Shown: one piece after another, positions 16,003 through 27,860 of the stretch
Layout of the letters: each line of letters begins with the position of its first letter
How positions within the stretch are numbered: the stretch's first letter is position 1
From: an uncultured Bacteroidota bacterium
Lineage (GTDB): Bacteria > Bacteroidota > Bacteroidia > Bacteroidales > F082
Direction: 5' to 3'
DNA: 64,000 nucleotides
Assembly: GCA_913055825.1 (NCBI GenBank)
Contig: CAJXKB010000004.1
Coordinates: 1 to 64,000 of the forward strand
The notes under the pieces: generated by a model
The model's database searches: none
Told to the model about the DNA's origin: nothing
Seen by the model: only the letters and a program-made list of their open reading frames with translations
Program-made: the position numbers and the translations under genes

Positions 16003-16770
16003 TTGGATAAAATTGCGAATATTTATTTGTATTGCGATCGCTGGTGTGAGCGTTGTGCTTTTGGTAACCGATGTGAGGCCTTTGCCGCCAATGAAACTTA
16101 TCGTAAAAAAGAAAACATGCAGGCTGATGACGAAAAGAACAGGCTGTTTTGGGAAGATATTGAGAGTAAAATGGATGGGGTTTTCCATGAACTTGAAGAA
16201 AAAGCCAGGGTTCTTGGAAAGGATTTAACCGTATTTGAAGGGCTTTCCAAAGCGAAAAAATTTGATCTTTTTCAGCGAAAAGCAGTAAGCAATGATGTGC
16301 TCAAAGCCGGTCGTAAATATGAAGACCTCGTGGATGACTGGTTGGATGCCATGGCGGACAAAGGGGTATTGAAGATGATGGAATTTTTGCCCGGCTCGGT
16401 GTTTCGTGTGGCTGCAGATGACTTTACCGAAGATGAAAAAAACCACGCCAACAGCCTGATTGAGGTGATTATGCGTTATCAGTTACAGATTTATCTTAAA
16501 CTCTCGCGTTTATATTACACACTGGGAAAAGAGTCTGAAGAAGACTGGAATTCCGGCGATGAAATGGCTTCAGATGTTACTGCCAAAATGGTTTTGCATA
16601 TTATCCGGCGCTCGCTGGTAGCCTGGTCGGGTTTAATGAAATATTTCCCTGACGGGGATGGACACGCATTACTTGACATATCATTGCTGTTAATGCGGAT
16701 GAAAAACCGCCTTGAAATGGAATTTCCCCATGCTGATATGGCTGTAAGACCAGGATTCGATGGTTATTAA
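16003..16770 (+). CDS. Conserved hypothetical protein with N-terminal Cys4 motif
   Basis: About 255 residues from the TTG at 16003. I prefer this start because upstream codons derive from a repeat and the conserved-looking segment starts here. The N-terminus has C-x3-C-x2-C-x5-C at residues 11, 15, 18 and 24 (YCDRWCERCAFGNRC), plausibly a zinc or iron-sulfur site. The rest is alpha-helical and acidic, without membrane segments; SRLYYTLGKESEEDW and MVLHIIRRSLVAWSGL look like helical-bundle segments. It is not a family I recognise. It converges with the SurA-like gene and overlaps its stop by 4 bp. Confidence 0.65.
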   Translation: MDKIANIYLYCDRWCERCAFGNRCEAFAANETYRKKENMQADDEKNRLFWEDIESKMDGVFHELEEKARVLGKDLTVFEGLSKAKKFDLFQRKAVSNDVLKAGRKYEDLVDDWLDAMADKGVLKMMEFLPGSVFRVAADDFTEDEKNHANSLIEVIMRYQLQIYLKLSRLYYTLGKESEEDWNSGDEMASDVTAKMVLHIIRRSLVAWSGLMKYFPDGDGHALLDISLLLMRMKNRLEMEFPHADMAVRPGFDGY

Positions 16771-18188
16771 TTTTTCTTCAGCCAATGGTGTCTAAAATGA
16801 CAAGTTGTATATTCAGGAATAATTTTGATATAAGTACTTTGTGCTTTATCATTAATCCAGTTGTCGATTGCTTTGCGTTGTTTGGCCTGCAAAGCCCATT
16901 GTTCAATTTTTGGGTAATCCTCTTTTAAATTTGCCCTGTGGGGAGGTATCTTTTTTTCGAGGTACAGTAAACGAAAAGCGTCTTTTTGTTCTTCGGTTTT
17001 AAAAGGCACAGGATTGGAAATTTGCCCGGGTTTTAATTTATTCACCGTGAACGAAACCTGTGGATCCAACTGGTCGCCTTCAAATTCAATGCCTCCTGTT
17101 TGCGGGTTCAGCAAATAACCTCCATTATTTTTATTTTTTCCATCCGAATATTTTTCAACCGCCTTATCAAAAGTTAGTGAATCGGAACGGATTTCGCGAA
17201 CAACGGTATCTAACTGCATTTTTGCTTTTTCCAAATCGAGCGGGGAAACTTTTGGAGTCAGTAAAATATGACGTACGTTGATGTAATCGCCTTTTCGGGC
17301 AATCATTTGGATGATATGATAACCGGCTTTGGTTTCCACCACATCCGAAATTTCACCGGGTTTTAATTTATAAGCTGCAGCTTCAAAAGCAGGATAAAGC
17401 TGTCCGCGACCATAAAACCCCAACTCACCTCCTTTTTTGGCAGACCCGGGGTCTTCGGAATATAGTATCGCGAGTGTTGAAAAACTTTCGCCATCCAAAA
17501 TGCGTTTCCGAAGTTCGAGCAATTCCTTTTTCACCCGAAGTTTTTCTTCAATGCTCACCGGAGGTTCTTTTACAATTTGCCGGATAATATATTCGGTTTT
17601 TATCAATGGAATGCTGTCTTTCGGGATGTTGTTAAAGTAAGTGGTAATTTCGGAAGGGGTAACGGTTACTTTTCCGGTTATTTTTTGCTGAACCTGTTGC
17701 GCAAGTAACTGGTCTTTTACAATATCGTGTAATTCTGATTTAATTTCCGTCAGGGATTTCCCGTAATATTTTTCCATTTTCTCCTGACTGCCGAACTGAT
17801 TGATAAAAGTAGATAATCGGCGCTCCAGCTCGCCGGCTACCTGTACTTCGTCAACTGTTAAGCTGTCTACTTCGGCCTGAGCCACCATGAGTTTTTGGTA
17901 AAGAATACTTTCCAGTATCTGACACTTCATCTGTGTTTCGGTGCCTTCAATGCCTCCTTGCATACGATAGTTAAGGTATTGATTTTCGATATCCGATTGC
18001 AAAATAATACTTTTACCCACTACGGCTACTACTTGATCTAATATTTTACCTTTTGGTTTTTCGTTGTCCTGTGCAAGCAGGTTCAGCGAAAAAAATAGCA
18101 AAAAGACCAACAACCCGTAACCCGGTTTAAATTTTTCAATTCCGGTATTCAATAGTTTTGTTTGTTTCATACGACTAATAAATCTCAT
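16767..18188 (-). CDS. surA: SurA-like peptidylprolyl isomerase / periplasmic chaperone
   Basis: 473 residues. Signal sequence (to about residue 40, ending LNLLAQ), a SurA N-terminal chaperone region (ILDQVVAVVGKSIILQSDIE onward), and two parvulin (rotamase) domains. The first (about 210-305) has YSEDPGSAKKGGELGFYGRG and AGYHIIQMI. The second is more divergent (VRHILLTPKVSPLDLEKAK...YSDGKNKNNGGYL). It likely escorts outer-membrane proteins to the BAM complex. The start overlaps the upstream lipoprotein gene by 14 bp; an internal Met at 18170 would remove the overlap. Third and last chaperone gene after guaB in an apparent operon. Confidence 0.9.
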   Translation of the reverse strand: MRFISRMKQTKLLNTGIEKFKPGYGLLVFLLFFSLNLLAQDNEKPKGKILDQVVAVVGKSIILQSDIENQYLNYRMQGGIEGTETQMKCQILESILYQKLMVAQAEVDSLTVDEVQVAGELERRLSTFINQFGSQEKMEKYYGKSLTEIKSELHDIVKDQLLAQQVQQKITGKVTVTPSEITTYFNNIPKDSIPLIKTEYIIRQIVKEPPVSIEEKLRVKKELLELRKRILDGESFSTLAILYSEDPGSAKKGGELGFYGRGQLYPAFEAAAYKLKPGEISDVVETKAGYHIIQMIARKGDYINVRHILLTPKVSPLDLEKAKMQLDTVVREIRSDSLTFDKAVEKYSDGKNKNNGGYLLNPQTGGIEFEGDQLDPQVSFTVNKLKPGQISNPVPFKTEEQKDAFRLLYLEKKIPPHRANLKEDYPKIEQWALQAKQRKAIDNWINDKAQSTYIKIIPEYTTCHFRHHWLKKN

Positions 18189-19089
18189 ATTCTTTGTTTT
18201 TGCCGGCTTGTTTCAGAATATCTTTTCTCAACTTTTTTACCAGCAATGTTTTTCTTTTATTGAGGATAATGCTCCTGATGAACCTTGACTCCAGTTCCAA
18301 AGGCGAAGTTTCATCTTTAATTTTAAAGTTGACAAATTTAAGCAGATAAAGCTTGTTATCGTCATTTAAACGAATAAATCGGTGATTTTTTAAATAAAGT
18401 TCCTGATTATAAGTTTCTATGGGGACTACGTGCAGAATCTCGTTGAAGGGTATCCAGGTATTGGTGTCGGCTGAATAAGCCAGTACCCTCGTCGGGGAAT
18501 ACTTGTCTAACGAATCAAGCATCAAACTGTCAGGCAGGTGTAATATTTTCTCAAAATTCTTTTTCAGCAATTTAAAATCGCTCCTTTTTCGGTCTAAGAT
18601 GACATAAACCACTTTCACAATATTTTCTTTCAATTCAAAATCTTTTAGGTGATTTTGATAATAAAGTTTAATTTTCTTATCGCTGACCAGGGTGTCCAGA
18701 TGTTGTTTTACGTATTCTGTTTCATATTGATAAATAATTAAGGAGTTTCGATACTCTTCCAATTGTTTTTCAAAATTTAACTTTTCTGACGGAAGGCTTT
18801 TTTCAGCCTGCTGTACCATCAGTTGAGTCTGTATCCATTTGTTTATGTAGCTTTTACTCAACAAGAGGCTGTCGCTCGGACTTGCACCTTTCGGAATTAT
18901 TTCCTGTAAATCACTTTCATACAAATAGGTGTCGCCGACCTTTGCCAAAGGGATGTCCTTAGTTTGAGTGCTGTGGCGATGACAACTATTTAATGTGGAT
19001 AAGGCAAGGAGGGCCAGCAAAAGAACCCCCGGCAGCCATAAACCGGGTAACTGCTTACGATATAAACTTATCGGTAATTGCCTTGGCAT
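18175..19089 (-). CDS. SurA_N-like lipoprotein lacking a parvulin domain
   Basis: 304 residues. A hydrophobic N-terminus ends in a lipobox (LALSTLNSCHRH), followed by a SurA/PpiD-type helical segment (IPLAKVGDTYLYESDLQEII, then SYINKWIQTQLMVQQAEK). The segment where a rotamase domain would be expected (ENIVKVVYVILDRKRSDFKL...) lacks the parvulin signature. It is therefore probably a holdase or partner subunit rather than an isomerase. Sandwiched between two parvulin-type genes, with 13 bp to one and a 14-bp overlap with the other, it is likely part of one periplasmic or inner-membrane chaperone system for outer-membrane proteins. Confidence 0.75.
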   Translation of the reverse strand: MPRQLPISLYRKQLPGLWLPGVLLLALLALSTLNSCHRHSTQTKDIPLAKVGDTYLYESDLQEIIPKGASPSDSLLLSKSYINKWIQTQLMVQQAEKSLPSEKLNFEKQLEEYRNSLIIYQYETEYVKQHLDTLVSDKKIKLYYQNHLKDFELKENIVKVVYVILDRKRSDFKLLKKNFEKILHLPDSLMLDSLDKYSPTRVLAYSADTNTWIPFNEILHVVPIETYNQELYLKNHRFIRLNDDNKLYLLKFVNFKIKDETSPLELESRFIRSIILNKRKTLLVKKLRKDILKQAGKNKEYEIY

Positions 19090-19102
19090 GTTGTTTATTG
19101 AT

Positions 19103-21127
19103 TTAGTGTTTCTTTGCCTGCTTGTGTATGAGTTTTTGCAGGACCTTATTATTAATTTGTACAGGATATTTCTTTTTTAATTGTTGTATCCATTGTTGTT
19201 CTAAGAAATCCTGATAATCAGCGATAATCTGGCCGCGTGCTTCTTCGAAAGTTTTGGGTGCAGCTGGTAACAATTTTTGGATATAAACCATAGATGCCTT
19301 GTTTTCCACATCGGAAAGTATCGGTTTTGAAAGGCCTGTTTTCCATTCGACAGCATCAAGTACTTTCGTTTCACCTTTCTGAAAAATGCCGGTATCTGCT
19401 TTTAACACAGGAATTTCTTTAATTTTATGGGTATCAATACTGCGTGCCAGGCCCATTTTATCAGGGTAAGCTGTAATCAATGTTTTCAAACGCGAAATCC
19501 ACTGTTTCTCAGTTTGAAAAATGATGGCCTGTGCACGTTTCCCCCATTGGTATTTTACATGATGTTCCTTGTAATAGTTTTTCAGTCCCGTTGTGTCCTG
19601 AACGGCTTTGCTCCACACCTTCCTATCCATCAGGTTAAACAGTAATATGCCATCGTGATATTCTTTCACCAGCGCTTTAAAATCAGGATAAAAATCTTCG
19701 AGATGCCGGTTTTCAAATTCAACACATTTTTCATTAACAAACTGTTGGAAAAGCTGGTTTAGAAACTGTTGTTTCGACATGATTTTTCTTTGATTCTGGT
19801 GTTTTTGGATAAAACGCGCCAAATCATATTGCGTAAAAGTAGTGGTATTTTGTTTTTCCCCAATGGTCATCACCGGTTTTGTCATTTGTTTCAGGCTGTC
19901 GGCTGTAAATTTGCCTTTCAAAAAGCTTGAATTGATGGCTGCAGACAATTCCCCGCGTGCTTGCAGGTAAGTTTTCAGATGATGTTCTTTCTTAATTTGG
20001 GCGATTGCACTTTCCTTGCTTTTTTTGACCCGTTGGCTTCTTTCCACTCGTTCTTTAAGGGTTGGCTCTTCCTGTTTAAAAGTGCCGGGATGTTTAATGT
20101 TCAGCAGTTTTATGATATGAAACCCATAACTTGTTTGGAAAGGCCTGGATATCTGGCCTGGGTTTAAAGCGTCGATATGTAATATAAATTCGGGGACAAT
20201 TCGGTTGGAAGTAAATTTGGGTAACTCACCGCCCTTGGCAGATGAGCCTTTGTCTTCAGAATATTTTCGAGCTGCTTCTTCAAACGACATCCCGGCTTTT
20301 ATTTTAGAATAAATGGTATTGATTTTTTTCCATCCGCGGGCAGAATCGGCAGGGGTAGCATCCGGCGCCAAACGAACAAAAATATGAGCTACCTGTGCCA
20401 CGCCCATAGCAGGCCGTTTGTCGGTTACTTTAATCAAATGATAACCAAAACGGGTTCGAACAGGTTTGGAAACATTTCCGACAGGCGTGTTAAAAGCTAC
20501 ATTTTCAAAAGGGTATACCATATTAAAAACCGAGAAATAACCCAAATCGCCATGGTTTCCCTTATGTGCTCTTTGTTTGCCGGGAATCGCTTTGCGGTCA
20601 CGTGCAGAAGGATCCTCAGAATATTCGGCAGCAGCTTGTCCGAAGTTTTTTCCTTTTAAGATCTCATCCCGTATTTTATTGATTTTATTCCAAGCTTTTA
20701 AAGTGTCTGCAGGGCTGGCATCCGGTTTCAGACGAATTAAAATATGACTGGCACGCAAATCGTATTGCTTACGCTGATAGGCTTCTTTTACCAGCGCATC
20801 GGTTACGCGCTCATCCACAAAATAAGGCTTGGCCAGTTGTTTGCGGTAGCCTGCCAGTTCCTTTTTAAATGAGCTGACCGTATCCATTTTCAGGGCTTCT
20901 GCTTCCATAACCTTAAGTCTGAAGTTGATGTACAATTTCAGATAAGCTTCAATGGATAAGCTGTCCTGCCCTTTGTATTTAGAGTAGACGTCCATAAATT
21001 CGCCCACACTGACTTTTTGTCCGCCAATATTTATCAACTCTTTTCGGTTGAACGAACGTTGGGCTTGAACCGAAAAGGTTAATAAAAATGAAAATAACAG
21101 TGTGAAATAAATAGGGTATTTTCTCAT
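19103..21127 (-). CDS. Two-domain parvulin peptidylprolyl isomerase (PrsA/SurA type)
   Basis: 674 residues. Signal peptide (1-22, ending SVQAQ), then tandem parvulin domains at about 125-235 and 240-345, each with clear motifs: RASHILIRLKPDASP...EYSEDPSARDRK...GDLGYFSVF...RFGYHLIKV and AHIFVRLAPDATP...YSEDKGSSAKGGELP...SYGFHIIKL. The long C-terminal part (350-674) is helical and resembles SurA-like chaperone regions. Periplasmic proline isomerisation and chaperoning are expected. It lies 18 bp downstream of guaB and upstream of the two other SurA-type genes, so it is probably co-transcribed with them. Confidence 0.9.
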   Translation of the reverse strand: MRKYPIYFTLLFSFLLTFSVQAQRSFNRKELINIGGQKVSVGEFMDVYSKYKGQDSLSIEAYLKLYINFRLKVMEAEALKMDTVSSFKKELAGYRKQLAKPYFVDERVTDALVKEAYQRKQYDLRASHILIRLKPDASPADTLKAWNKINKIRDEILKGKNFGQAAAEYSEDPSARDRKAIPGKQRAHKGNHGDLGYFSVFNMVYPFENVAFNTPVGNVSKPVRTRFGYHLIKVTDKRPAMGVAQVAHIFVRLAPDATPADSARGWKKINTIYSKIKAGMSFEEAARKYSEDKGSSAKGGELPKFTSNRIVPEFILHIDALNPGQISRPFQTSYGFHIIKLLNIKHPGTFKQEEPTLKERVERSQRVKKSKESAIAQIKKEHHLKTYLQARGELSAAINSSFLKGKFTADSLKQMTKPVMTIGEKQNTTTFTQYDLARFIQKHQNQRKIMSKQQFLNQLFQQFVNEKCVEFENRHLEDFYPDFKALVKEYHDGILLFNLMDRKVWSKAVQDTTGLKNYYKEHHVKYQWGKRAQAIIFQTEKQWISRLKTLITAYPDKMGLARSIDTHKIKEIPVLKADTGIFQKGETKVLDAVEWKTGLSKPILSDVENKASMVYIQKLLPAAPKTFEEARGQIIADYQDFLEQQWIQQLKKKYPVQINNKVLQKLIHKQAKKH

Positions 21128-21145: not shown

Positions 21146-22660
<1,515 letters not shown>

Positions 22661-22782: not shown

Positions 22783-24084
22783 ATGCGCAAACGATTGTTA
22801 AACATTTTATTTTGGTCGGTGATTTCGGCGGCTTTCATTGGCCCCGGAACTATTACCACGGCAGCCAAAGCAGGTGCTGAATTTGGTTTTTCATTACTTT
22901 GGGCCCTTCTGTTTTCCACCATAGCCTGCCTGGTTTTGCAGGAAGCAGCAGCACGCTTAAGCATTCTTTCCGGAAAAAGTCTGGGCAACGCCATCGCCGA
23001 ACATTACAAAAATAAAAAAGGGGGCTGGCTGATTTTTGTATTGGTTATCGGTGCCATTATTTTGGGCTCGGCAGCTTATCAAACCGGTAATTTACTGGGC
23101 GCTGCCGAGGGTATCCGCATCTTTATAAACATCCCAACTATTGTTTTGGTGTTGATTATAGGGTTAATAGCATTTATTGCCCTGCTGTTTCCCGGTTTAA
23201 AAATAATTGCCCGAATGCTGGGCTTTCTAGTGGTTTTAATGGGTATTGCGTTTCTTTATACGGCAATCACCATTAAACCCGATATAACAAATGTAGTACA
23301 TGGGGTGCTTGTTACTTCTTTTCCGGAGGGCTCGGGCTTATTGCTTTTGGGTTTGGTTGGTACTACGGTGGTTCCCTATAATTTGTTTCTCGGCTCAGGT
23401 ATTGCTGACAAAAAGCAAAGCCTTGTTGAAATGCGATGGGGAATCTCAGTGGCTATTATCCTTGGCGGGATTATTTCGATGGCCGTTTTGATTACAGGTA
23501 CGGCTGTGAATAATGAATTCTCATTTTTAGCATTAGGCCGGGTACTGGGTGGCAAGATGGGTAGCACGGCAGTTTGGTTGTTTGGATTCGGACTGTTTGC
23601 TGCCGGTTTTTCTTCGGCTGTAACAGCACCATTGGCTTCGGCCATTACAGCGAAAGATATTTTTGAAAAACCTGGTGAAAAGAGGTGGCAACCCCACGGA
23701 CTTTATTATAAACTGACCTGGATGTTCGTTTTGTTCACCGGATTGGGTTTCGGAATGGCCGGTTTCAAACCTATCCCTGCCATCATCACCGCACAAGCAC
23801 TTAACGGATTAATATTACCTTTTGTAAGTATTTTCCTCTGGGTGGCTATCAACGATCGGAAACTTGTTCATCAAAAACTTAATTCCATTTGGAGTAATCT
23901 GCTGTTCGGACTTGTGGTTTGGGTTAGCTTGCTGTTGGGGAGCTGGAACATTTTGCGACTTATCGTAAATATGAACACCACCTCAACGGGTATAACTTAT
24001 ATTATGGTAATTTTACTGGGTATAAACCTTGTTTTTACACTCTTAGTGTGGTTTTTATTGATTAGAAAACAGAGGATGAAATGA
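22783..24084 (+). CDS. NRAMP-fold transporter with non-canonical substrate site
   Basis: 433 residues, about 11 membrane segments, NRAMP (SLC11/MntH) fold. The first helix aligns with MntH (IGPGTITTAAKAGAEFGFSLLW against the DPGN helix), but the metal-binding Asp and Asn are Gly20 and Thr23. In helix 6 the metal-ligand Met of MPH is Val197 (GTTVVPYN). Canonical Mn2+/Fe2+ coordination is therefore absent. The gene overlaps a 5-oxoprolinase/hydantoinase gene by 4 bp (ATGA). I infer a proton- or sodium-coupled importer of 5-oxoproline, hydantoin or a similar small organic substrate rather than a metal transporter. A divergent metal or Mg2+ carrier remains possible. Confidence 0.85.
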   Translation: MRKRLLNILFWSVISAAFIGPGTITTAAKAGAEFGFSLLWALLFSTIACLVLQEAAARLSILSGKSLGNAIAEHYKNKKGGWLIFVLVIGAIILGSAAYQTGNLLGAAEGIRIFINIPTIVLVLIIGLIAFIALLFPGLKIIARMLGFLVVLMGIAFLYTAITIKPDITNVVHGVLVTSFPEGSGLLLLGLVGTTVVPYNLFLGSGIADKKQSLVEMRWGISVAIILGGIISMAVLITGTAVNNEFSFLALGRVLGGKMGSTAVWLFGFGLFAAGFSSAVTAPLASAITAKDIFEKPGEKRWQPHGLYYKLTWMFVLFTGLGFGMAGFKPIPAIITAQALNGLILPFVSIFLWVAINDRKLVHQKLNSIWSNLLFGLVVWVSLLLGSWNILRLIVNMNTTSTGITYIMVILLGINLVFTLLVWFLLIRKQRMK

Positions 24085-27000
24085 AAAATCAATCCTATGA
24101 AATTTATATTGATACAGGTGGGACATTCACCGATGTGCTGGCTTACGCCGATGACAACAGGGTTTATAAACTAAAGATACTGAGCAAAGGAAGCCTGAGG
24201 GGGAAAATTGTTTCGCGACAAGCTGACAAAACCTATCAAATAAAAGAAAACTGGCATTTGGAGAAAGATATCCTCCGGGGATTTACTTTTACTTTACTGA
24301 GGGATGCAGCCAAAACTTTCCGTGTAGATGCTTTCGACCCAAAACGAAATTTGTTGACACTTGATCGGCCCATTGAATTCGACAAAAGCCTTTTAAATCT
24401 TCCGTTTGAAATTTCCAGTGGTGAAGAAGCACCTGTGCTGGCAGCCCGTATCATTACGCAAACATCACTTAGTGCGGCATTTCCACCCCTGAAAATGCAA
24501 CTTGGAACCACCAAAGGTACTAATGCCTTATTGGAATCGAAAGGAGCAAAAAGTGTGTTGTTTACTACCAAAGGTTTCGGCGATTTGTTGAAAATTGGCA
24601 CCCAACAACGCCCCGGCATTTTTAGCTTGGTTATTCCGCCGAAACAGATACTTCCAGCCCGTATTGTTGAAATTGATGAACGGCTGGCAGCCGATGGCTC
24701 TGTGTTAATTTCGCTGGACGAAAACAAATACAAAAAAACTTTACAAAAATTAAATGAGGAGGGTTTTACGTCGGCTGCGGTGGCTTTTCTTCATTCCTGG
24801 AAAAATTCCGAACACGAAATACGTTTTCGTCAACTTCTTGAAAAATACGGCTTCCGGTACATCTCCATTTCTTCAGATTTATCCCCACTCATAAAAATTC
24901 TTGAACGCACCCAAACCACCACGGTCAATGCCTACCTTGATCCCATTATTAACAACTACCTGAATGGGATTATGCAGTACACCGGCAAAAGATTGTTGGT
25001 GATGAATAGTGCCGGGGGACTGGTGCCTGCCGATGAATTTTATCCCAAGGACAGTCTGTTAAGCGGTCCTGCAGGTGGTGTTGTGGGAGCTGTAAACGTG
25101 GGGAAACAGTGTGGCCGTAAAAATCTCATCACTTTCGATATGGGAGGTACTTCAACAGATGTGTCGCGCTATAGTGAACAGTTTGATTATCAATACGAAA
25201 TAGCTTTTGGGAATGCCAGGGTTTTTAGTCCTGCTATCGCCATTGAAACAGTGGCAGCGGGAGGTGGTTCAATTTGCACATTTGATGGTTTCAAAATGAC
25301 CGTGGGACCTGAAAGTGCAGGTGCTTATCCCGGTCCGGCCTGTTATGGTGCCGGAGGTCCGCTTACGCTAACTGATATTAACCTGCTCAGCGGGAGATTA
25401 GACGTTAAGAGTTTTGGAATTCCTGTAGATTTGGAAGCTGCCGGTATCCGTCTTGAAGAGTTGATACATGAAATGGCAATGAAAACAGGGAAAACGCCGA
25501 AAAAGGAAAAAATTCTGGCTGGTTTTCTCTCCATTGCCAACGAGATTATGGCTGGTGCCATCCGGAAAATATCTGTATCCAAAGGCTTTAACCCTGCTGA
25601 TTATGCTTTGCTTGCTTTTGGCGGGGCAGGCGGACTGCATGCCTGTGCAATTGCCGACAGTTTAGGAGTCGGGGAAATTATTGTCCCTGCCGATGCCGGT
25701 ATTCTTAGTGCAGCAGGTATAGGACAGGCCCGCTTGGAAAAACGTTCTGAACAGCAACTGTTGCTCGATTTTGAAGACGAAAAAAGTCATCTTGATTTTT
25801 ATTTTAAGAAGTTAGGTGATGAACTGTTTTCGTCGGTACCGGCCAATGAATTTGAAATCAGTCAGCGTAAATTGTTCCTTCGTTTCAAAGGACAGGATTC
25901 GAGCCTGCCTGTGGATTGGAACGGAGATAGCCGGGCCTGCTTGCAATCGTTTCATGAAGCTTACCAAAAACTTTTTGGCCACTGGATTGACAACCGTCCC
26001 ATCGAAATTGAATCCATTCGTATCAGTATTCAATCTAAGGAACAACACCACGTTGGTAAGACTGATTCAATGCTGTTGAAAAGCAAAGCAAAAGTACACC
26101 ATTATCAAAATGGCTTTACCGGTTTAGAGTGGGAAAAGGTGCCTGTGTATTTAAAAACAGAGATGAAACCCGGAAACTTCATCCCGGGTCCGGCACTGAC
26201 TACCGACGACAAAAGCACAACCTTTCTGGAAAAATACTGGCAGGCCGATGTGGATGGTTTTGGAAACCTTATTTTGAAGAAAACCTCACATCAAAAAGAA
26301 ATCACACCTAAAAAACAATTTGAGACGCAGCTTGAACTGTTCACCAACCGTTTTAAAATGCTGGCCGAAAATATGGGTGCCGTTTTGCAGCGTACAGCCT
26401 TGTCGGTCAATATAAAGGAACGTATGGATTTTTCGTGTGCCCTGCTGGACAAAAATGGCTATCTTGTGGCCAATGCCCCGCACATTCCGGTGCACTTGGG
26501 CGGACTGGGTATTTGTGTCCGCGAAGTTATGAAGGATTTTACCTTTTCGCCGGGTGACACACTCGTTACCAATCATCCGGCTTATGGTGGTTCCCACCTG
26601 CCCGACGTTACCCTCATCACTCCGGTTTTCGATAAAAAAGACAATCTGTTGGCTTTCGTGGTCAACCGGGCACATCATGCTGAAATCGGGGGAATCGCAC
26701 CTGGTTCTATGCCGCCTTCCGCTACCCGGCTTTCCGAGGAAGGCGTAGTGATTGCCCCCACTTATTTGGCAAAACATGGAAAAGTATTATGGTATCAGAT
26801 GGAACAGCTTTTTAAATCGGGAAAATATCCCAGCCGTTCTGTGCCTGAAAACATGGCTGACCTGAAAGCAGCGTTGGCAGCGAATTACAACGGGCAGAAT
26901 GCTTTTCTTCAAATGTTGGATGATTACGGAGAAGAAGAGGTGTTGCAATACATGCGTGCGCTTCGCGATATGGCCACGAACAAAATGCGTCATGTGTTGT

Positions 27001-27860
27001 CTGGTTTTCCCAATGGAGAATACCGTGCAGCTGAAAAGCTGGATGACGGCAGTTTGATTCAGGTGAAAATCACTATTCGTGAGGATAAGATTCATTTTGA
27101 TTTTTCCGGTAGCTCGCCGGTACACCCAGGCAATATGAACGCCAACCGGGCTATCGTAAACTCCGTGATCATCTACGTGATGCGTCTGCTTTTAAATGAA
27201 GATATCCCACTTAACGACGGACTTATGGAGCCGGTTAGCATGAATCTGCCTACTGGTTTGCTGAATCCTGTGTTTGGTGATAATCCTGATGAATGCCCGG
27301 CAGTGGTGGGAGGCAATGTTGAAATCAGCCAGCGGCTTACTGATACGTTGTTGAAAGCTTTTGGCATTGCAGCCTGTAGTCAGGGGACCATGAACAACGT
27401 GCTGTTTGGTAACCGGCATTTCGGCTATTACGAAACTGTTGCAGGCGGTGTTGGGGCTACAAAAAATTCCGATGGAGCTTCAGCCGTTCACCAACACATG
27501 ACCAATACACGTATCACAGACCCGGAAATTATGGAATACCGCTATCCCATTAGAATAAAACGATTCGAAATCAGACATGAGTCCGGAGGAAGGGGAAACC
27601 ATAAAGGCGGGAACGGAGTGGTCCGTGAATATGAATTCCTTGATGATATGGAGCTGTCTATACTCAGCCAGCACCGTAAGTTTGCCCCTTACGGGATGGC
27701 AGGCGGTGAAGCCGGAATGACCGGTGAGCAGTGGCTGATTACAGCCGGGGGTGAAAAAAAGCAACTCAAAGGAATCACGCAACTCACGGTGCATAAAAAC
27801 GATGTTTTTTTGTTGAAAACCCCTGGAGGCGGAGGCTTTGGCCACGTTGCTGATAAATGA
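24081..27860 (+). CDS. 5-oxoprolinase / N-methylhydantoinase (HyuA-HyuB fusion)
   Basis: 1259 residues, close to eukaryotic OPLAH (about 1290). The HyuA half (1-690) has the ATPase motifs DTGGTFTDVLAY, LGTTKGTNALLESKG, SGPAGGVVGAVNVGK, FDMGGTSTDVSRY and ALLAFGGAGGLHACA. The HyuB half (745-1255) has MGAVLQRTALSVNIKERMDF, HPAYGGSHLPDVTLITPVF, RAHHAEIGGIAPGSMPP and GGNVEISQRLTD. The enzyme hydrolyses 5-oxo-L-proline, or a hydantoin or related cyclic amide, with ATP; the exact substrate cannot be read from sequence. Cytoplasmic, translationally coupled to the NRAMP-like transporter. Most bacterial versions are two separate genes, so the fused form is worth noting. Confidence 0.93.
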   Translation: MKNQSYEIYIDTGGTFTDVLAYADDNRVYKLKILSKGSLRGKIVSRQADKTYQIKENWHLEKDILRGFTFTLLRDAAKTFRVDAFDPKRNLLTLDRPIEFDKSLLNLPFEISSGEEAPVLAARIITQTSLSAAFPPLKMQLGTTKGTNALLESKGAKSVLFTTKGFGDLLKIGTQQRPGIFSLVIPPKQILPARIVEIDERLAADGSVLISLDENKYKKTLQKLNEEGFTSAAVAFLHSWKNSEHEIRFRQLLEKYGFRYISISSDLSPLIKILERTQTTTVNAYLDPIINNYLNGIMQYTGKRLLVMNSAGGLVPADEFYPKDSLLSGPAGGVVGAVNVGKQCGRKNLITFDMGGTSTDVSRYSEQFDYQYEIAFGNARVFSPAIAIETVAAGGGSICTFDGFKMTVGPESAGAYPGPACYGAGGPLTLTDINLLSGRLDVKSFGIPVDLEAAGIRLEELIHEMAMKTGKTPKKEKILAGFLSIANEIMAGAIRKISVSKGFNPADYALLAFGGAGGLHACAIADSLGVGEIIVPADAGILSAAGIGQARLEKRSEQQLLLDFEDEKSHLDFYFKKLGDELFSSVPANEFEISQRKLFLRFKGQDSSLPVDWNGDSRACLQSFHEAYQKLFGHWIDNRPIEIESIRISIQSKEQHHVGKTDSMLLKSKAKVHHYQNGFTGLEWEKVPVYLKTEMKPGNFIPGPALTTDDKSTTFLEKYWQADVDGFGNLILKKTSHQKEITPKKQFETQLELFTNRFKMLAENMGAVLQRTALSVNIKERMDFSCALLDKNGYLVANAPHIPVHLGGLGICVREVMKDFTFSPGDTLVTNHPAYGGSHLPDVTLITPVFDKKDNLLAFVVNRAHHAEIGGIAPGSMPPSATRLSEEGVVIAPTYLAKHGKVLWYQMEQLFKSGKYPSRSVPENMADLKAALAANYNGQNAFLQMLDDYGEEEVLQYMRALRDMATNKMRHVLSGFPNGEYRAAEKLDDGSLIQVKITIREDKIHFDFSGSSPVHPGNMNANRAIVNSVIIYVMRLLLNEDIPLNDGLMEPVSMNLPTGLLNPVFGDNPDECPAVVGGNVEISQRLTDTLLKAFGIAACSQGTMNNVLFGNRHFGYYETVAGGVGATKNSDGASAVHQHMTNTRITDPEIMEYRYPIRIKRFEIRHESGGRGNHKGGNGVVREYEFLDDMELSILSQHRKFAPYGMAGGEAGMTGEQWLITAGGEKKQLKGITQLTVHKNDVFLLKTPGGGGFGHVADK

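Follow-up and report, generated by a model that had tools for sequence, protein, structure and literature searches.

What does an NRAMP-related protein carry when the residues that bind the metal ion have been replaced and its gene overlaps that of an ATP-dependent lactamase? This question is raised by two genes in a stretch of 64,000 nucleotides, here called the window, from an uncultured bacterium of the Bacteroidales (contig CAJXKB010000004.1). The two open reading frames lie on the plus strand at 22783-24084 (433 amino acids) and 24081-27860 (1259 amino acids), and these coordinates were confirmed as exact. An earlier note on this DNA had described an ATGA overlap between an NRAMP gene and a HyuA-HyuB gene; the ends of the reading frames and the Pfam domains bear this out. 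The features of the pair are as follows.

22783..24084, plus strand: NRAMP-related transporter, proposed 5-oxoproline importer (PF01566, AlphaFold model, Foldseek)
22840..22851, plus strand: TM1 motif GPGT (residues 20-23) replacing DPGN (alignment; helix break at 20 in the model)
23077..23091, plus strand: TM3 motif YQTGN (residues 99-103), covering the proton-path Asp/Glu columns (alignment)
23371..23382, plus strand: TM6 motif VPYN (residues 197-200) replacing MPHN (alignment; helix break at 196-197 in the model)
24081..24084, plus strand: ATGA overlap of transporter stop and enzyme start
24081..27860, plus strand: fused HyuA-HyuB ATP-dependent lactamase, proposed 5-oxoprolinase (PF05378, PF01968, PF02538)
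24111..24134, plus strand: ATP phosphate-1 motif DTGGTFTD (residues 11-18; role from PMC8453981)
25137..25160, plus strand: ATP phosphate-2 motif DMGGTSTD (residues 353-360; PMC8453981)
25320..25343, plus strand: adenosine motif GAYPGPAC (residues 414-421; PMC8453981)
26325..27845, plus strand: HyuB half (Pfam; metal ligands named in PMC8453981)
26418-26444, plus strand: metal-site motif ERMDFSCAL (PMC8453981)
26586-26606, plus strand: metal-site motif GGSHLPD (PMC8453981)
26673-26693, plus strand: metal-site motif HHAEIGG (PMC8453981)

The neighbors of the pair, named by eye, are a guaB-like gene, which is divergent, and a priA-like gene; the unit therefore probably consists of the pair alone. 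Promoter and terminator scans returned about as many sites as in shuffled sequence. Reading by eye also placed the guaB-like gene at 21146-22654, preceded by three consecutive genes for SurA/PpiC-type periplasmic foldase-like proteins at 16767-21127 on the minus strand.

To place the transporter, we compared its product with the Pfam Nramp profile (PF01566), which it matched at 224.5 bits (cut-off 29.8). The AlphaFold model (pLDDT 84, pTM 0.86) had NRAMPs as its best solved matches in Foldseek, with a TM score of 0.88 to DraNramp, and its first and sixth transmembrane helices are broken at residue 20 and at residues 196-197, respectively. The profile match and the LeuT-like NRAMP fold make the protein a member of the NRAMP superfamily. 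These properties, including the TM1 and TM6 breaks, are common to the canonical NRAMP/SLC11 importers (DraNramp, EcoDMT, BfraNramp and the MntH encoded in the same genome).

The motifs, on the other hand, are not those of a canonical importer. Motif columns were read from a 108-sequence alignment with the MntH of the same genome (L001) as reference. This MntH carries MDPGNW and VMPHN and, as judged by eye, a C-terminal extension resembling a stress-protein domain, and its gene adjoins one for a metal-type regulator-like protein. At the MntH ligand columns the window protein has Gly20 for the TM1 Asp, Thr23 for the TM1 Asn, Thr194 for the TM6 Ala, Val197 for Met and Tyr199 for His. The Asp and Glu of the TM3 proton path are replaced by Gln100 and Asn103, and across the group these positions hold Glu or Gln, and Asn. 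The alignment thus upholds the claim that GPGT stands in place of DPGN and VPYN in place of MPHx. The loss of Asp, Asn and Met that had been claimed with it is also real, but the list was incomplete because the TM6 His and Ala are gone as well. The window protein therefore has neither the DPGN and MPH metal ligands nor the acidic TM3 residues of the canonical proteins.

These replacements are not peculiar to one sequence. All 78 window-type members that cover the ligand sites have Gly, Thr or Ser, Val and Tyr there; the only departure at these fixed sites is one Ser in the Thr23 column, while the TM6 proline varies to Thr, Ala or Gly in some members. Such group-wide fixation speaks against both chance and sequencing error. 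The absence of canonical ligands is shared with the EleNRMT-type Mg2+ transporter, the second-best PDB profile match to the window protein. According to a 2026 preprint, the EleNRMT type transports Mg2+ (PMC12873925); we know of no link between it and oxoprolinases.

The enzyme holds the Hydant_A_N, Hydantoinase_A and Hydantoinase_B domains in one chain of 1259 residues. It shares the fused HyuA-HyuB order, the ATP motifs and the Asp/His/Asp/His metal site, all intact, with OPLAH-type 5-oxoprolinases and the HyuAB lactamases, and differs from them in that residues about 30-139 have no match in solved homologues. Among solved structures, N-methylhydantoinase (7hk5) and caprolactamase (6yra) come closest, and the substrate therefore cannot be read from the sequence alone. 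We found no fused-type 5-oxoprolinase among the solved homologues, and the NCBIfam matches fell so far below their cut-offs that no substrate was read from them. The vicinal Cys-Cys pair of caprolactamase is absent from the window enzyme.

To find what accompanies this transporter elsewhere, we searched 296 Bacteroidota genomes for the window-type NRAMP, for HyuB and for PxpA of the PxpABC enzyme, reported to be a 5-oxoprolinase (PMC13274462); all counts below that are not said to be from plasmids are within Bacteroidota. Matches to the window protein split cleanly, with 63 at 172 bits or more and the remainder at 94 or fewer. Every one of the 63 transporter genomes encoded exactly one of the two enzyme types (PxpA in 40, HyuB in 23, both in none, neither in none), as compared to only 38 of the 233 genomes without the transporter that encoded either. 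The association was strong by genome (Fisher p = 4.5e-38) and by genus (an enzyme in 30 of 30 transporter genera but in 56 of 140 genera overall; p = 2e-15), although these p values overstate independence because the genomes share ancestry. Outside the sample, genomes of a new family had HyuB only (G296 and G475) or PxpA only, adjoining the transporter (G368). The co-occurrence is one-way: no transporter occurred without an enzyme, whereas 38 genomes had an enzyme without the transporter. The transporter thus depends on the enzyme and not the reverse, a pattern expected for nutrient uptake.

Within its own order the NRAMP-HyuAB operon is sporadic. The window's genome (G000) has it and encodes no PxpA, while none of nine other genomes of the order has a window-type NRAMP, HyuB or PxpA. 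This suggests either transfer into the window's lineage or repeated loss.

Conservation of the adjacency had been named beforehand as one of the points on which the idea could fail. It is conserved: the transporter gene lies within 6.5 kb of an enzyme gene in 45 of 63 genomes, compared to 0 of 42 for other NRAMP matches, which rules out a chance neighbourhood. The 18 transporters that are not beside an enzyme count against a role in 5-oxoproline uptake. In 30 of the 63 loci pxpA, pxpB and pxpC follow the transporter directly. Among its seven close relatives (46-60% identity), HyuAB is directly downstream in five, one of them cut by the end of a contig; in the other two (L007 and L008) a gene of the gamma-glutamyl cyclotransferase family, whose reaction yields 5-oxoproline, lies directly upstream. 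We count this gene in favor of a 5-oxoproline role, as we do the canonical MntH that the window's genome encodes beside a metal-type regulator.

Outside the Bacteroidota the evidence consists of selected plasmid records. Haloarchaeal plasmids have the order regulator, NRAMP, hyuA, hyuB; Haloferax gibbonsii is one haloarchaeon that has the NRAMP-hyuA-hyuB cluster. For three plasmid-borne window-type NRAMPs (L135, L138 and L144) no oxoprolinase was found within the stretch read, and three further plasmid matches (L147, L148 and L172) were kept apart as members of other NRAMP-related groups near metal genes.

Several other neighbors were seen repeatedly. Five of the haloarchaeal NRAMP-hyuA-hyuB clusters (L136, L137, L141, L142 and L143) are preceded by a gene for a ribbon-helix-helix regulator, and downstream of three of them lies a racemase/maleate-isomerase-type gene. 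At seven loci a DUF2891 gene (PF11199) precedes the NRAMP gene on the same strand by one or two genes, generally with NRAMP-pxpABC (L084, L086, L091, L092 and L100), but with NRAMP-hyuAB in L056 and with the NRAMP alone in L107; this family of unknown function is possibly linked to 5-oxoproline. At L089, L093, L105, L106, L109 and L112, window-type NRAMPs with the TM6 motif V[TA]YN are preceded by genes for proteins with 2-oxoacid:ferredoxin oxidoreductase domains (POR, TPP), in genomes that encode HyuB elsewhere. At L103, L110 and L116 a window-type NRAMP is near TrkA/TrkH-like potassium uptake genes (by eye), and pxpA is elsewhere.

In the tree, the window type forms a single clade apart from canonical NRAMPs, and at least two switches of the partner enzyme map onto it. 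One member (L101, in G282) falls inside the pxp clade, yet a fused HyuAB gene lies convergent to it 619 bases away and its genome has no PxpA. Window-type transporters have PxpABC as their other partner, whose protein families are unrelated to HyuAB. That one transporter type has exchanged one neighboring enzyme for an unrelated one points to the substrate common to both, 5-oxoproline, and on the basis of this exchange we propose that the window enzyme is a 5-oxoprolinase. With this substrate shared by both partners, uptake of 5-oxoproline is the best reading of the transporter.

A second NRAMP-related group bears on this reading. In a 2017 paper, YcsG of B. subtilis was reportedly first proposed to serve 5-oxoproline. 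That paper is cited by work showing that C. glutamicum needs PxpT, which has 50% identity to YcsG, in order to grow on 5-oxoproline and that PxpT complements (PMC13274462), and also by work on Mn2+ (PMC10448178). YcsG has been reported as an MntR-regulated Mn2+ importer whose overexpression raised cell Mn2+, and was renamed MntG (PMC10448178, PMC13055313). The 2026 preprint assigns MntG to a 'G-motif 3' group (PMC12873925). Like the window type, the YcsG/PxpT group is NRAMP-related, has GPG in TM1, lacks the DPGN/MPH ligands and is encoded with 5-oxoprolinase genes, but its motifs are GPGF and VGGY instead of GPGT and VPYN, and its identity to the window protein is about 23-26%. A Lactiplantibacillus plasmid, for example, carries pxpB, pxpC, biotin-related genes, a gene of the D-glutamate cyclase family, pxpA and an NRAMP with GPGF and VGGY that shares 26% identity with the window protein.

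We found this second type in 11 Bacteroidota genomes. A model of it matched B. subtilis YcsG (9a52) at 60% identity, as compared to 23% for the window model. An enzyme is encoded in all 11 genomes (PxpA in 10, HyuB only in 1), with the transporter within 3 kb of pxpA in nine. None of the 11 also has the window type (chance 7.6e-6 among 101 enzyme-bearing genomes). The window and YcsG types are separate clades with supports of 100/99 and 100/100, although a joint clade was not rejected (AU p = 0.33). The window protein does not cluster with YcsG, and it has the link to 5-oxoprolinases (63/63 by genome, 45/63 by neighborhood). The low identity, the separate clades and the differing TM6 motif rule out that it is a YcsG orthologue. 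The earlier note had taken ycsG as a member of the window protein's own branch; instead, two NRAMP-related groups appear to serve 5-oxoprolinases.

Taken together, these data make it probable, as far as sequence comparison can tell, that the window pair takes up 5-oxoproline and opens its ring. The two genes would form a unit for salvage of 5-oxoproline (pyroglutamate), in which the NRAMP-related protein would import the compound through a LeuT-fold pore, the broken TM1 and TM6 (GPGT and VPYN) binding an organic acid in place of a metal ion, and the fused HyuA-HyuB would open the ring with ATP to yield glutamate. As in amino-acid transporters that share this fold, the glycine-rich break in TM1 may bind the carboxylate. 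Both 5-oxoproline as the substrate and the inward direction are what we infer from the partner genes. The earlier note had envisaged import of 5-oxoproline or a related cyclic amide. The first is strongly supported by the co-occurrence and the neighborhood, while hydantoins are less likely, given that transporters of this type are also paired with PxpABC.

One could argue that the protein still imports Mn2+ or a similar divalent metal through other ligands, feeding a metal-dependent oxoprolinase or a general need for Mn. Cells that overexpress YcsG/MntG contain more Mn2+, and attempts to make an mntH mntA ycsG triple mutant failed (PMC10448178), a growth defect linked to Mn was relieved when MntG was induced (PMC13055313), MumT, an NRAMP relative encoded with urea carboxylase, affects Mn (PMC5050338), and HyuB-type enzymes do bind metal (PMC8453981). 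However, the YcsG data belong to another NRAMP-related group; in the window protein all TM1 and TM6 ligand side chains and both TM3 proton-path residues are replaced, the ligand positions being replaced in every window-type member, and a canonical MntH is already present in the same genome. Furthermore, metal import should benefit a cell with or without the enzyme, yet none of the 63 genomes has the transporter alone, and the window type tracks 5-oxoprolinases without exception, unlike canonical and other NRAMP matches. We consider metal import unlikely. A combined mode, in which 5-oxoproline is cotransported with a divalent metal and supplies the lost ligands (a metal-chelate symporter), would account for both the Mn2+ and the 5-oxoproline phenotypes published for the analogous YcsG/PxpT proteins, but we regard it as very unlikely. 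To our knowledge, no such mode is known in the NRAMP superfamily.

It is quite unlikely that the imported compound is another cyclic amide hydrolysed by HyuAB, such as a hydantoin, a lactam or a dihydropyrimidine. The nearest solved relatives of the enzyme, the activity of HyuAB enzymes on hydantoins and lactams as well, the same general fold of the hydantoin transporter Mhp1 (low in the Foldseek list) and the gene of the Asp/Glu/hydantoin racemase clan in haloarchaeal clusters all speak for it. On the other hand, the same transporter type is paired with the 5-oxoprolinase PxpABC in 40 genomes (PMC13274462), PxpA and HyuB avoid each other (together in 1 of the 296 genomes against 8.7 expected), and the window enzyme has no caprolactamase Cys pair. 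The least probable alternative, which we consider remote, is that the protein moves glutamate or exports 5-oxoproline, easing an internal build-up and not scavenging. The compound arises spontaneously in cells (PMC13274462), the gamma-glutamyl cyclotransferase-family gene upstream at L007 and L008 would produce it intracellularly, and the direction of transport cannot be read from sequence. Export would nevertheless bring the greatest benefit to cells that lack the enzyme, yet 0 of 63 genomes lack it, and C. glutamicum needs its analogous PxpT to grow on external 5-oxoproline (PMC13274462). Uptake of 5-oxoproline thus remains our preferred reading.

A role in 5-oxoproline uptake was already proposed for the NRAMP-related YcsG/C. 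glutamicum PxpT group (PMC13274462). What is new here is a second such group, its HyuAB partner, the exchange of that partner with PxpABC and the exceptionless co-occurrence; our literature search found no paper naming both 'nramp' and 'hydantoinase'. With the metal ligands lost and a 5-oxoprolinase as constant partner, the automatic annotation of the window group in Bacteroidota and haloarchaea as 'Nramp family divalent metal transporter' is probably an error, and 5-oxoproline importer is the most likely description. In the 2026 preprint, NRAMP-related groups beyond the Mg2+ transporter and MntG groups are called 'entirely uncharacterised' (PMC12873925); one of them now gains a specific and testable substrate. 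The finding also sharpens the open dispute over whether YcsG imports Mn2+ or 5-oxoproline, and two separate NRAMP-related groups for organic-acid uptake would bear on how the metal selectivity of SLC11 arose from ancestors resembling amino-acid transporters.
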